Positions 54,424-59,612 of a stretch of 64,000 nt of DNA are shown here, one piece after another; positions within the stretch are counted from its first letter, which is position 1, and every line of letters begins with the position of its first letter. Source of the stretch: Bacillus sp. THAF10 (lineage in GTDB: Bacteria; Bacillota; Bacilli; Bacillales; Bacillaceae_I); the NCBI RefSeq assembly GCF_009363695.1, contig NZ_CP045403.1, forward strand, positions 2,150,001 through 2,214,000, in the 5' to 3' direction. The notes under the pieces are model-generated. The model saw only the letters and a program-made list of their open reading frames with translations, was not told where the DNA came from and made no database searches. The translations under genes and the position numbers were made by a program.

Positions 54424-54589
54424 GTTGCTCCTCCTAAAAAAAATCTTCAAGTATTAAATCCTAATATAGATGTGAGTAGTGTTCAACAAAAAGAGATGAA
54501 TTATAAATTTGTAGAAAATTGTTGAAATTTACACAATGAAATGTGATATGATAAATAAGTACTAGTTATTTTTTCTTAGGAGGTGCAAG

Positions 54590-55048
54590 ATGTCCCCATC
54601 AGAGAATATAAATCAGTTAATCCACAGGGCATTGGACTCATTCAAAACGGTAATTCCATTGGAAATGTCATTTGATTCACCGCAAGTTCATACAGAAAAA
54701 CTTGCCACCATTGCCCTAGGGGTTCTTATTGAATTGACCGGAGATATTCGGGGTCAATTAATTATTCAAGGGGAAAAAACTGCCTTTCAAGAAATTGGTG
54801 AATCCATGTTTGGAATGCAGCTCGATGGCGACATGCTACATTCTTTTACAGGAGAACTTGGAAATATGATCGCCGGAACACTCTCATCCAGTATTGCTCA
54901 AAGTGGAATTCATATGGATATTACACCACCCGATGTCATAAATGAACAAGAAAAAGAATTCCATTTTTTACACAGGCTACATACTCCAGTTCTATTAAAG
55001 AACCAGCTACAAATGCAAATTATTGTTGAATTAGAGGAAGCCTCCTAA
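54590..55048 (+). CDS. CheX-like chemotaxis phosphatase family protein
   Basis: A 152-residue CheC/CheX-type protein. The family signature ExxN is present (E89 and N92 in GELGNMIAG), which in CheX coordinates attack on CheY-phosphate. No second copy of the motif is seen, so it is CheX-like. TAGGAGG lies before the ATG. Its terminator stem is split by the transposon described at 55071-58068. No chemotaxis gene is adjacent, so the target may be another response regulator. Confidence 0.82.
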   Translation: MSPSENINQLIHRALDSFKTVIPLEMSFDSPQVHTEKLATIALGVLIELTGDIRGQLIIQGEKTAFQEIGESMFGMQLDGDMLHSFTGELGNMIAGTLSSSIAQSGIHMDITPPDVINEQEKEFHFLHRLHTPVLLKNQLQMQIIVELEEAS

Positions 55049-55053
55049 TAAAT

Positions 55054-55070
55054 AAGAACCCTCCATTTGA
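55054..55070. other. Left arm of a split terminator and 7-bp target duplication
   Basis: AAGAACCCTC is the left arm of the former cheX-like/ypwA terminator, followed by the target copy CATTTGA (55064-55070). The right arm GAGGGTTCTT is at 58076-58085. Rejoining them without the element restores a perfect 10-bp stem. Confidence 0.9.
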
Positions 55071-55097
55071 GTAAGTAGTTCAGTTTTTGTGGAGAAA
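55071..55097 (+). repeat. Left terminal inverted repeat
   Basis: 27 bp starting GTAAGTAGTTCAG. Against the right copy (58042-58068, inverted) only positions 16 and 17 differ (TT for AA). Confidence 0.93.
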
Positions 55098-55103
55098 CAA
55101 TAG

Positions 55104-55219
55104 AAATAGCATACTAATTTTAAGACCAAATCGCATAGTGATTTGGTCTTTTATATTTATTGATATATCAATGTTTTTGTTCAAAATTGGTATAAAATAG
55201 CATACGAAATCGCATACTA
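55104..55219. repeat. Left subterminal array of a 13-bp motif
   Basis: Four direct copies of AAAT(A/C)GCATACTA-like sequence occur at 55104-55116, 55128-55140, 55195-55207 and 55207-55219. A fifth, inverted and weaker, is at 55282-55294. Transposase-binding sites are commonly arranged this way. Confidence 0.75.
55122..55154 (+). terminator. Terminator inside the left end of the transposon
   Basis: AAGACCAAATC and GATTTGGTCTT form a perfect 11-bp stem with TTTTAT following on the plus strand. It can end read-through from the CheX-like gene and shield the transposase. Confidence 0.85.
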
Positions 55220-55325
55220 AATAACAGAGTGACAATAACTGTTGTCAATGTGAAAATTAGGATGTTAAAATGGGTGTTAATTACTATGCTAATTGTACTA
55301 CCTTTTAAAAGGAGTGAAAAATATC

Positions 55326-55577
55326 GTGCAATTCATCAAACCTAAGAATAATAATGCTGATAAAGTGGATTGGCTAATATCTGAACAAGTCCGAGAAATA
55401 ATAAAGAATTATGCGGAATTCTGCGAATATAGCGAGAGCGAAGTAGTTGATATGTTCTTAAAAAACCTTCTCAAAGATGAAGAGTTTCTTAAATGGATTG
55501 ATGGCATACGGAACAATAAAAGAATGATAAGGAAAATGGGGTTAGAGGATGTAATGGAGGGACAAAAACTTGGCTAA
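55326..55577 (+). CDS. Small accessory protein of the transposon
   Basis: An 83-residue soluble protein. The GTG at 55326 follows AAAGGAGTGA by 7 bases; an ATG at 55293 lies before the site. The N-terminus is basic (QFIKPKNNNADK), then two acidic helices (WLISEQVREIIKNYAEFCEY and EVVDMFLKNLLKDEEFLKWI) resembling a ribbon-helix-helix or helical DNA-binding fold, without a firm match. Its stop overlaps the transposase start by 8 bases, so the two are translationally coupled. It may regulate or assist transposition. Confidence 0.7.
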   Translation: MQFIKPKNNNADKVDWLISEQVREIIKNYAEFCEYSESEVVDMFLKNLLKDEEFLKWIDGIRNNKRMIRKMGLEDVMEGQKLG

Positions 55578-57516
55578 ATTACAACGACTGGCTACAAAAG
55601 AAGATGGCATCGTTGTTGTTCATAATCCTCTAAGTGAAGAAGATTTAAAACACAGAAAGGAACAATACAAAGTCTTATCCGATAAACAATTTGCCTTTCG
55701 CTATAATCATATGATGTTTCTCCCTATCGAATTCAATTGGAATGGAAATACACATATAATACAATACAACTTCTGTACGAACCCTTTTTGTAAATGGTGC
55801 GGTCAAGAACAAGAGAAATTCGAAACAGTCAAGGGTAAACCATCAAGATACAAGTTGAGCGGTAGAAGCAGTAAGAAAATGCTTGTATGTAATACAGACC
55901 CTATTCACCCTAATAGGGGTATGACTTTAAATTGTTATTCGACAGCTATTTCGAATTGGTCTGTCGCAGAAGAAATTTCGAGACTTGTTCGTATCAACCA
56001 GACCAAAGATGTTGAGACGGAATATAACTTCCATAAGGATAGCTGTGTTATTGGTCATCTAACGCCTTTTGATAAGCCAAGCGAGTTCTATAAACAAGGA
56101 AAGACATTGAATAAAGCTCAACGATGGCAATGCAAAGTGTGTAAGAAAAAGACAAGTATTCTTCCAAACAAGCGTCAATCCACTACTTATCGTCAAAAGA
56201 AGAATGATATTCTTCCGATGTTTGCTAAATTACTATTAAACAAAATGCCTATTAGTCGAACTTGTGATATTTTAGAAATCGGTGTCGGCACTTACTATCA
56301 TAAATTAGAATGGTTGTACCGTTGTTGCTTGGAATTCTTAGAGAAGTATGAAACAACGCCATTGGCTACTATGTCATTCAAAGAAATGTGATTAAATACC
56401 GATAAAATGCACTACAACCTTAATAATGTTCGCAAGAAAGGTCAAGGCGGTCAAAAGTATTTTGGTTTAGAAGATAGCCAAGTACAGACTTATGTGGTTG
56501 TCTCAGCGGATACCATTTCACGATATGTTTTCAGGTCAGATGTTGCGTATGATTGGGAAATGACAGTAGAAGATTTGAAACTCGATACGGAAATTTATAA
56601 AGAAGACCATTTGAATGATTTCAGTAAGAAGAATAACCGTTTGGACTTTTCGTATTACCCTCAAGAACCAACCGAGAAGGACACTCAAAAGCCACACGAA
56701 TATCGAGCTGAATTAAATGAATTCAATAAGAGGTTGCAGTATGTGGATGGACTTCACGTTAATCCGACTTACACGACAATGGCTCACTATTGGCTAATAA
56801 AACAAATGGTAAAATCTAATGAATGGAGAATGATTAGCGATAATGACGCTTCTATAATGACTGCGTTTTTTAGGGTGTTCTCGAAGGAAGTAAGAATGTC
56901 TGATGCACATCACTTCCTTTGTTTGCTTGATAAGAACAAGAGTAGAAAACAATGTTTAGAAGAGTTTGATGATGCAAAATCCGATTTATTGGACTGGGGA
57001 TTTCATAGAGATTACGAAACAAAGAACTTGCGTATATTGGCTTATTCATATTTAAAAGAACTATTTGAAACTCATCAGTTTCATAAGGAAATCAAAACAC
57101 CAACACACTCTTATAACGATTTGGCTAAAAATCCAATTACACACCCATTTGCATCGAGAGATAAAGGTTTTCATAGAGTGGATTGTACAACTGATTTATC
57201 ATCTCTTGAACCGAAAGAAATAGCGAAAATGGTATTGAATGTGAACGATAATGCCACGAATAGTTTTATCCAACAAATTCGCAGAAGGTTGTCTATTCTT
57301 GAAAGACCATTGATGACAGCCAGAGGAGATGGGAAGAGTTATATTTACGCTAACTTTAATCCGAAGTTTGCACAATACGCACTAACCATTCTAAGAACAT
57401 ACTACAACTTTTGCGAAACCTACAAATCAGCCGATGGAAAAGAACTTACTCCTGCACAACGATTGGGTATTACAGATAAAGTATTTGATTTAAAAGATAT
57501 AATCTATATGAGGTAG
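55570..57516 (+). pseudogene. Transposase interrupted by an in-frame TGA
   Basis: A single 648-codon frame starting at TTG (55570) with GGAGG 8 bases upstream, broken only by TGA at 56389-56391 (codon 274). Before it lie two zinc-finger-like Cys groups (FCTNPFCKWCG near 78; WQCKVCKKK near 190) and a helix-turn-helix (ISRTCDILEIGVGTYYHKLEWL). After it lie the Asp of NTDKMHYNLNN (just 3 codons past the TGA), ISDNDASIM, and the C-terminal RRRLSILERP and NFNPKFA, a likely DDE core. TGA replacing Trp TGG would restore EMWLNTD. It is probably inactive unless the codon is read through; a second ATG at 56407 could start a partial product. Confidence 0.85.
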
Positions 57517-57548
57517 GTTCGTCTATAATTTTCAGACGAACTTTTTTA
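57517..57548 (+). terminator. Terminator after the transposase
   Basis: GTTCGTCT and AGACGAAC pair around a 9-base loop; TTTTTTATTTTT follows. Confidence 0.85.
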
Positions 57549-57645
57549 TTTTTTTAAAGGGATATTGTAAATTTATGTTAAAATATGAATAGGACTGTCA
57601 ATGGTAGTTTTAAGTAAAAGGTTGATTATGTTAAGGGGTGAAAAA

Positions 57646-57918
57646 ATGAATAATATTAGTCGTTGGGTAATTGCAGGTGTTTTAATTTTATTTGGAGTTT
57701 TATTGCTTAACAAAGGGTTAGAATTATGGTCACTCGGAACAGATGTTGATGGAGACGGTATTGGAGTATTTTTTTTAGGATTTGAAATAAATAACAGAGT
57801 GCCAGAAGAAAGTATCCTTTCATACGCAATTGGATTTTTTATATCGAGTTTAGTTGCTTTAATCGTTTCTGGTGCATTTGTTCGAACAAACTTGAAATTC
57901 AGAAATAAAGCAAGTTAG
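57646..57918 (+). CDS. Small membrane protein carried by the transposon
   Basis: A 90-residue protein with two membrane helices (about 8-24, IAGVLILFGVLLLNKG, and 56-78, SYAIGFFISSLVALIVSG) and a basic end. AAGGGGTG precedes the ATG at 57646; an earlier frame start at 57601 has no site. It has its own downstream terminator. No family is recognised; as the only gene not related to transposition it is the element's cargo. Confidence 0.7.
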   Translation: MNNISRWVIAGVLILFGVLLLNKGLELWSLGTDVDGDGIGVFFLGFEINNRVPEESILSYAIGFFISSLVALIVSGAFVRTNLKFRNKAS

Positions 57919-57933
57919 TCACTGATAATGATA

Positions 57934-57965
57934 AAAAACGCTTGGAGATTATTCCAAGCGTTTTT
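57934..57965. terminator. Bidirectional terminator inside the right end of the transposon
   Basis: AAAAACGCTTGGA and TCCAAGCGTTTTT form a perfect 13-bp stem with A-runs and T-runs on both sides. It can end the cargo transcript and also ypwA transcripts entering the element. Confidence 0.88.
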
Positions 57966-57987
57966 AAGTGCTAAATTAACTGCTAAT

Positions 57988-58024
57988 TATAATGCTATCT
58001 CTATTCTTTTTTGAGATGCGAAAT
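57988..58024. repeat. Right subterminal copies of the 13-bp motif
   Basis: Two degenerate inverted copies, TATAATGCTATCT (57988-58000) and TGAGATGCGAAAT (58012-58024), about three mismatches each from the left-end consensus in reverse. Confidence 0.5.
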
Positions 58025-58041
58025 CTACTGTGATTTTTAAT

Positions 58042-58068
58042 TTTCTCCACATTAACTGAACTACTTAC
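58042..58068 (-). repeat. Right terminal inverted repeat
   Basis: 27 bp ending CTGAACTACTTAC, the inverse of the left end with two internal mismatches. The target duplication CATTTGA follows at 58069-58075. Confidence 0.93.
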
Positions 58069-58085
58069 CATTTGAGAGGGTTCTT
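58069..58085. other. Right target duplication and right arm of the split terminator
   Basis: CATTTGA, then GAGGGTTCTT, the arm that formerly paired with 55054-55063. A T-rich tail (TTCAT) follows on the plus strand, 6 bases before the ypwA stop. Confidence 0.9.
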
Positions 58086-58091
58086 TTCATA

Positions 58092-59612
58092 TTATTCATT
58101 AAGTTGATAGATGGAAGCGTATTTTGCTTCTAAATATTCGATGAGATAGTTTACGTTTAATTCTTCGCCTGTTACGTCACGAAGTATCTCAAGTGGCTTT
58201 TTCATTTTACCGTATTGATGGATATTTTTGGTGAGCCATAATTTAATCGGTTCTAGTTCACCAGTTTCTAATAGCTCATCATAATTTGGTAGATCATGTT
58301 GCATCGCATTTTTAAATTGAGCGGCATACATATAACCTAACGCATAGGATGGAAAGTATCCAAAGCTACCACCAGACCAATGTACATCCTGCAGCACTCC
58401 TTTTGCGTCGTTTGGCGGCGTAATCCCAAGGTAGCTTTCATATTTCTTGTTCCAAGCCTCCGGCAAATCTTTTACTTCTAATTCCTCGTTAAAAAGTGCT
58501 TTCTCTAGCTCATAACGAATCATAATGTGAAGCGAATAGGTTAGTTCATCTGCTTCTATTCTGATAAAAGAGGCTTTCGACTCATTAATAGCCACATAAA
58601 ATTCCTCAAGGCTCAAGTGATCAAAGTTTCCATCAGCATAGCTTTGCAGGGTTTCATAATGCCTCTTCCAGAAGTTCTTGTGACGGCCGACAAAATTTTC
58701 ATAAAATAACGATTGAGATTCATGAATACCCATGGAAGTACCTGTACATAAACCAGTTCCTTGGAGATCTTTAGCAATATTTTGTTCATATAACGCATGT
58801 CCACATTCATGAATCGTTCCAAAGACAGCTGTACGGAAGTCTTCTTCATCATATTTCGTTGTTACTCTCACATCCCCAGGATTTAAGCCAATAGCAAAAG
58901 GATGGACAGTCTCATCCAATCTACCGGAATCAAAATCATAGGATAATTCCTTTAATATATCTAAACTAAAGGCTCTTTGCTTTTCTTTTGGAAAATGCAC
59001 AAGCAAGTCCTTTGAGCGAGGCTGAACGGAAGAATCGGTAATTTTTTTGACTAATGGTACAATACGATCCTTTAATTTTCCAAACACTTCATCCAGCTTT
59101 TCTACGGTAATTCCAGGCTCGTACATATCAAGAAGAGTATTATATTTGTTCCCTTCATAACCCCAATATTCAATAAATTTTTTATTATAGCTTACTAACT
59201 TTTCTAAGTACGGTAGGAGCATAGAAAAATCGGAATTTTCTTTTGCTTCCTCCCAAACCGACTCTGCCTTTGTGCTAAGTACTACATAATCTTGATAATC
59301 CTTGGCAGGAATTTTTTTATTTCTTTCGTAGTTCTTTTTGCTTTCATCTAAGGAAGCTTTGGTTGTTTCATCTAACGTAGCCATGTTTTCATCGTTTAAT
59401 AGCTGTGTTAAATAGCTCGCCATTTCCTCTGAGGTAGACATGTTAAATACTTCTGAGGAAAGCATGCCTATGACGTCTGAACGTCTGTCCGCTCCCTTTT
59501 TCGGGGCGCCTGTTCGCAAGTCCCAAAACATAAGAGATAGTGCTTCCTTATAGCTGTCAATTTTATTTACATAGTTTAAATATTCCTCTTTAAGTGTAGT
59601 AGTTTCAACCAT
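58092..59612 (-). CDS. ypwA: Metallocarboxypeptidase, M32 family
   Basis: A 506-residue cytoplasmic M32 carboxypeptidase. The zinc site is HECGH in TIHECGHALYEQN, with the third ligand Glu in the following GTSMGIHESQSLFYEN (HESQ). It releases C-terminal amino acids from peptides. Length equals the family norm. It is a single gene; its original terminator is split by the transposon. Confidence 0.95.
   Translation of the reverse strand: MVETTTLKEEYLNYVNKIDSYKEALSLMFWDLRTGAPKKGADRRSDVIGMLSSEVFNMSTSEEMASYLTQLLNDENMATLDETTKASLDESKKNYERNKKIPAKDYQDYVVLSTKAESVWEEAKENSDFSMLLPYLEKLVSYNKKFIEYWGYEGNKYNTLLDMYEPGITVEKLDEVFGKLKDRIVPLVKKITDSSVQPRSKDLLVHFPKEKQRAFSLDILKELSYDFDSGRLDETVHPFAIGLNPGDVRVTTKYDEEDFRTAVFGTIHECGHALYEQNIAKDLQGTGLCTGTSMGIHESQSLFYENFVGRHKNFWKRHYETLQSYADGNFDHLSLEEFYVAINESKASFIRIEADELTYSLHIMIRYELEKALFNEELEVKDLPEAWNKKYESYLGITPPNDAKGVLQDVHWSGGSFGYFPSYALGYMYAAQFKNAMQHDLPNYDELLETGELEPIKLWLTKNIHQYGKMKKPLEILRDVTGEELNVNYLIEYLEAKYASIYQLNE

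Follow-up and report, generated by a model that had tools for sequence, protein, structure and literature searches.

The window, a stretch of 64,000 nucleotides from Bacillus sp. THAF10 (contig NZ_CP045403.1), contains a transposon of 2996 bp (55072-58067) lying between a cheX-like gene (54590-55048) and a gene for an M32 carboxypeptidase (58092-59612, minus strand), which converge on it. Its ends are 26-bp inverted repeats beginning TAAGTAGTTC, the left one at 55072-55097 (plus strand) and its partner at 58042-58067 (minus strand); one end reads TAAGTAGTTCAGTTTTTGTGGAGAAA and the opposite end is the same but for two changes, so that 24 of 26 positions are identical. Two copies of a 9-bp target duplication, CCATTTGAG, can be read directly outside these ends, at 55063-55071 and 58068-58076. 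The first-pass annotation had recognised the inverted ends, but it set the borders at 55071 and 58068 and the length of the ends at 27 bp, and these values were corrected when the borders were re-read from the sequence. The 7-bp duplication that it reported, CATTTGA, is wrong: seven bases were counted because one base of the repeat on either side had been taken as part of the inverted ends, and the two extra flanking bases agree between both sides of the element. In the family copies described below, each of these two bases agrees in 85 of 89 copies, compared with about 23 when shuffled. The direct repeats of these copies match at 9 of 9 positions in 72, at 8 of 9 in 11 and at 7 of 9 in 6.

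The element encodes, in this order, a small ribbon-helix-helix-like protein, a transposase with a zinc-binding/HTH part and a DDE core, and one cargo protein. This bears out the gene set originally read at the locus, a small coupled protein, a split transposase and a cargo gene. The accessory gene (55326-55577, plus strand; 83 aa, GTG start) was identified from its reading frame, an alignment and a structure model of pLDDT 84.7, whose best matches are AmrZ, TacA1 and CopG, all at E > 1; a search of PDB sequences with its profile gave nothing convincing. It is present in 45 of 47 rows of autonomous elements, one row having later been dropped as a duplicate. The first part of the transposase (55570-56391, plus strand), zinc-binding and HTH, shares 8 nt with the accessory gene and ends in an in-frame TGA stop (56389-56391); the second part, with the DDE core, follows in the same frame (56392-57516, plus strand). 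When searched separately, the second part found 402 relatives, of which the best 120 were listed, and these could be aligned. In relatives the transposase is about 650 aa long. Because of the in-frame stop that splits it, the transposase of the window copy is probably inactive. Thus the description of the locus as a complete small transposon with cargo holds for the element and its cargo, which are real, but not for the transposase gene, which is interrupted.

Neither the two window pieces of the transposase nor the intact relative P0003 passed any Pfam or NCBIfam cut-off, and a PHROGs search gave nothing convincing. When its profile was run against PDB sequences, nothing appeared up to an E value of 10. 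A structure model of the transposase of an intact relative was only moderate (pLDDT 66.3); Foldseek gave no match for it at ≤ 0.001, and no IS1 structure was found among the VIA-align rows listed. IS1 itself makes a 9-bp target duplication, and a weak resemblance to the IS1 family is found in the zinc-ribbon and HTH stretch of the transposase, at 22.8 bits for P0003 and 24.8 bits for the first part of the window transposase, against a curated IS1 cut-off of 100 bits. The window family differs from IS1 in the length of its transposase, its accessory gene and its cargo. The cargo gene of the window copy (57646-57918, plus strand) encodes 90 aa with two hydrophobic stretches, judged by eye. Homologues that are 52-56% identical to it occur in 8 of 15 congeners, and its own genome yielded no second copy. 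Rfam gave no match at gathering cut-offs over positions 54500-58600, and k-mer counts of subterminal repeated motifs revealed nothing clear.

The element has a named relative. This is Tn7491, a dfrG transposon of Listeria, Staphylococcus and Enterococcus that was first seen inside Tn6198. According to the available part of PMC10763498, it has ends TAAGTAGTTCAGTTTTGGAGTACAAAA and a 9-bp duplication, and one copy lies between the convergent genes csbB and saeS. The terminal repeats in the window begin TAAGTAGTTCAGTT, as published for Tn7491-type transposons in that same portion, and the two elements share nearly the same ends, a 9-bp duplication and the gene order, with a small gene before a related transposase and cargo after it. 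They differ in their cargo and in the inner part of their ends. Among plasmid records, 114 have a match to a relative of the transposase; the identity is 60-80% in 106, and 90 of the 114 come from Enterococcus. The 40 matches listed are at 63% identity. In all three plasmids opened, the small protein, the transposase and the cargo stand in the same order, and dfrG is present. Judged by its Tn7491-like ends, duplication and gene order, the window element is a new member of the Tn7491 group. The family had been called unassigned, which is true insofar as no Pfam or NCBIfam cut-off was passed but not in view of this relative, and the novelty claimed for the element itself is largely refuted by a named element with nearly the same ends. 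The apparent novelty seems instead to lie in where the family lands. The word "terminator" is absent from the main text of PMC10763498, and in the open-access literature searched, where Tn7491 occurs in one paper, we recognised no description of terminator-loop targeting by Tn7491 or its family.

When the two flanks of the window element are joined, they read AAGAACCCTC-CATTTGA-GAGGGTTCTT followed by TT, a terminator-like hairpin with a 10-bp stem and a 7-nt loop whose arms now lie at 55054-55063 and 58076-58085 (plus strand). The duplicated 9-mer corresponds to the loop of this hairpin and its closing pair. This position had been overlooked in the first-pass annotation. The empty site that it had read was confirmed: an uninterrupted match over both flanks was found in 8 of 15 congeners. 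Among the other seven, the flanks are 98-281 bp apart in four, and one flank only was matched in three. The gap between the two genes contains a hairpin reaching a score of 20 in seven of the eight congeners with an uninterrupted match; in the eighth, none reaches that score. By eye, a CCCTCC...GGGT hairpin stands just past the end of cheX in four of five aligned congeners, only one of which reaches the hairpin score there; it looks like the counterpart of the hairpin in the window.

Further copies of the family were collected and delimited by their ends and repeat only. From the best 80 of 130 transposase matches, 79 loci were named, and 46 were delimited by terminal inverted repeats of at least 19/24 and at least 6/7 repeat bases; the other 33 were not delimited. 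Eleven further copies, the window's included, were taken from a search in which the repeat was found. A set of 46 elements collected by end pattern included 9 already among these eleven; it left out a further 53 loci where ends occurred without forming an accepted pair. Three of these, L033, L169 and L198, have both ends, but only 6-7 of their 9 repeat bases are alike, and they were not counted. After the duplicates L004, L013, L015, L215 and L165 were dropped, 89 copies remained. L097 was kept with its ends placed a few bases off. Only duplicates with the same flanks were removed, and the 89 copies include related species and hence are not independent. The end patterns came from a scan of 299 genomes of the order, in which the first end-type occurred in 60 and the second, TAACGGGTTC, in 27, with no genome positive in either control (reversed, for the first); the ends of the first type were fetched in part. 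For the second end-type, 33 regions yielded 9 elements and 24 gave no pair. These nine sites repeat none of the 89, although some copies of the second end-type were already included among the 89.

In 67 of the 89 copies, when about 50 nt on each side were considered, the strongest hairpin had its centre no more than 2 nt from that of the insertion, where a uniform distribution, computed on 90 rows before one duplicate was dropped, would give 3.9. This was so for 40 of 46 autonomous copies, 25 of 39 copies without a transposase and two of four with a partial one. The same rule, applied afterwards to the fresh copies with the second end-type, placed the hairpin centrally in 9 of 9 (expectation 0.39). 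Consistent with this, the 45-nt joined sites had a median folding z of -5.1 against mononucleotide shuffles, with 67 of 89 below -2. Most sites have A 13-16 nt out to the left and T at the same distance to the right, more often than do 340 other terminators of the same loci; the used terminators are also more symmetric than these 340, with A at -15 in 91% of 58 compared with 52%. The 22 sites without a central hairpin tell against this reading, as do the poorer fit of the copies without a transposase and the three loci that have both ends but no good repeat. Most of the family copies examined nevertheless lie in the loops of transcription-terminator hairpins, usually between genes. This putative targeting rule is striking and testable, and it concerns a family that includes a carrier of dfrG, a trimethoprim-resistance gene, in Gram-positive bacteria.

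Selection might produce such a pattern if insertion were near-random and copies survived only in harmless intergenic spots, so that terminators became enriched. The neighbourhoods are in keeping with this, since at the 64 sites where both neighbours could be classified the genes are convergent in 35 cases and tandem in 28, and just 5 of 89 fall inside a predicted ORF of at least 90 aa (18 are without a classifiable neighbour pair). However, a preference for intergenic DNA would not centre three-quarters of the insertions within 2 nt of a hairpin centre, and control windows about 40 nt away do not fold in this manner (z below -2 in 13 of 178); we consider this explanation very improbable. The pattern could also arise if all that the transposase read were an A-tract and a T-tract spaced by about 26 bp; terminators carry such tracts, and the hairpins would then be bystanders. 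The bases A at -15 and T at +15 are indeed among the most constant, and of the 22 sites without a central hairpin by our measure, 10 keep both tracts and 12 do not. Tracts alone are nevertheless insufficient, since among A/T-matched stretches a central hairpin was found at 52 of 62 sites and in only 198 of 2717 stretches elsewhere, and recognition of this kind is improbable.

The remaining alternative would leave the rest of our explanation standing and have the terminator recognised through its RNA or a stalled RNA polymerase rather than through the symmetry of its DNA. Although the targets resemble working terminators with T-tracts, the insertions are centred on the hairpin, the upstream A-tracts are about as constant as the T-tracts, and the autonomous copies have no clear orientation bias. 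Relative to the transposase, 22 of the 46 lie between convergent genes, 10 and 10 between tandem genes in the two directions, none between divergent genes, three in an ORF, and one is unclassed; the richer tract was on the left in 18, on the right in 12 and equal in 12. Such recognition is conceivable but unlikely.

We hold it very probable that the window element is a Tn7491-type DDE transposon inserted in the loop of a two-way intrinsic terminator where the cheX and M32 carboxypeptidase genes converge, and we propose the following mechanism for its arrival. A two-fold symmetric transposase complex would recognise the symmetric DNA of a bidirectional terminator, laid out as A-tract, stem, loop, stem and T-tract and perhaps extruded as a cruciform. 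The two strands would be cut 9 nt apart, symmetrically about the loop, and joining of the ends and repair of the gaps would then leave the 9-bp repeat. The host terminator is split, but its role would pass to the hairpin terminators that the element has inside either end, and the neighbouring genes would stay insulated. The window copy has a terminator-like hairpin with a T tail inside its left end (55122-55150, plus strand), and a two-way terminator-like hairpin can be read from the sequence inside its right end (57933-57965), which is absent from the hairpin listing that gives the left one. The left-end hairpin is at the same place (element nt 63-65) in 12 of 14 autonomous elements displayed. 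Hairpins with an A or T tract occur in the left 250 bp of 40 and the right 250 bp of 39 of the 46 autonomous copies, with an interior rate of 0.10 per 250 bp; the corresponding figures for the other 43 copies are 30, 33 and 0.17.

Other mobile elements resemble the family in part. The mobile insertion cassettes of Bacillus cereus (MIC231) are transposase-less gene cassettes moved in trans, and they rely on an IS231/IS4-type transposase. REP-targeting insertion sequences use other transposases, and their targets are palindromes of a repeat family, as against terminators in general for the window family. ISPsy8, ISPa11, ISPpu9 and others of this kind enter extragenic palindromes (PMC1525189, in the part available). 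IS1272 and TnSha1 (IS1182 family) also insert into hairpins: in the accessible portions of PMC4923244 and PMC5678879, five of seven first sites are terminators confirmed by RNA-seq and a metabolic gene was moved. Their insertion removes the hairpin wholly or in part, with blunt ends, and produces no target duplication (PMC4923244, PMC5678879), whereas the window element keeps both stem arms and duplicates the loop. Loop duplication is drawn in the available text of PMC5678879 solely as a hypothetical pathway. The family points to a structure-guided choice of target by a DDE transposase in which, in contrast to IS1272, the normal duplication of the target is retained. In the part of the IStron paper PMC4227781 that was available, we found no mention of terminators.

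The region after the transposase is an exchangeable cargo slot. Close relatives of the window element, whose DNA is about 80-88% identical to it across 2.4-2.7 kb, differ from it in cargo: L026 and L044 have an acetyltransferase, L043 and L075 DUF4871. On these comparisons the cargo is exchangeable. Of 63 autonomous cargo ORFs of at least 75 aa, the scan covered 59, with one from L053, two from L101 and a short one from L102 omitted, and these matched 50 Pfam families; 31 chosen ORFs of copies without, or nearly without, a transposase matched 30, with overlap between the two groups. The families listed, the first 25 of each tally, where one ORF may match several, include acetyltransferases, dihydrofolate reductase, HAD and NUDIX hydrolases, transporters, an erythromycin esterase family protein and regulators. 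By tblastn (E 1e-5), 39 of the 89 copies gave no match to the transposase, and 35 of these 39 are 0.3-1.6 kb long. Many are one-gene cassettes of about 1 kb, a natural set whose ends offer a means of cataloguing them; copies that lost the transposase and kept both ends are probably moved in trans. Identical 3276-bp copies at different sites in Chryseomicrobium and Oceanobacillus records show recent movement; one of them (L053) is among the 22 sites without a central hairpin. We would guess that cargo is captured by composite transposition. With a terminator at either border, cargo would tend to be taken up as complete transcription units. Terminator targeting suggests why such elements can spread without breaking genes. 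More broadly, it seems reasonably likely that Tn7491-like transposons make up a gene-cassette system in Bacillota. Such a system would home to the loops of two-way intrinsic terminators, duplicate the loop and supply terminators in replacement, and it would shuttle an exchangeable cargo of one to a few genes, much of it as cassettes without a transposase that are moved in trans.

Several individual copies stand apart. L155, L156, L157, L182 and L184 are MITE-like elements of about 0.3-0.4 kb without ORFs of 60 aa; they form two groups at different sites with 81-89% identity, and one of the five is centred on a hairpin within 2 nt. A 6.3-kb element is 98.1% identical between L071 and L101, whose records are titled Chryseobacterium sp. 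ISL-80 and Bacillus sp. ISL-55; the former title may reflect a mislabel or contamination. In L102 (3875-9223), a 5.3-kb element has transposase matches spanning 3.4 kb, as if another insertion lay inside the transposase gene. The window genome itself holds a right-end remnant of a related element (L002:1501-1619, equivalent to C1:343432-343550), 83% identical over 119 bp, whose other side was lost beside what by eye resembles an insertion-sequence fragment; as it has no left end, its target is not readable. The phage records OP328421.1, OP328422.1 and MN270274.1 also match the transposase, two of the three over its whole length. Transposase matches in plasmid records of Rhizobium (two) and of Pseudomonas, Marinobacter and Acidovorax (one each) suggest relatives outside Bacillota.
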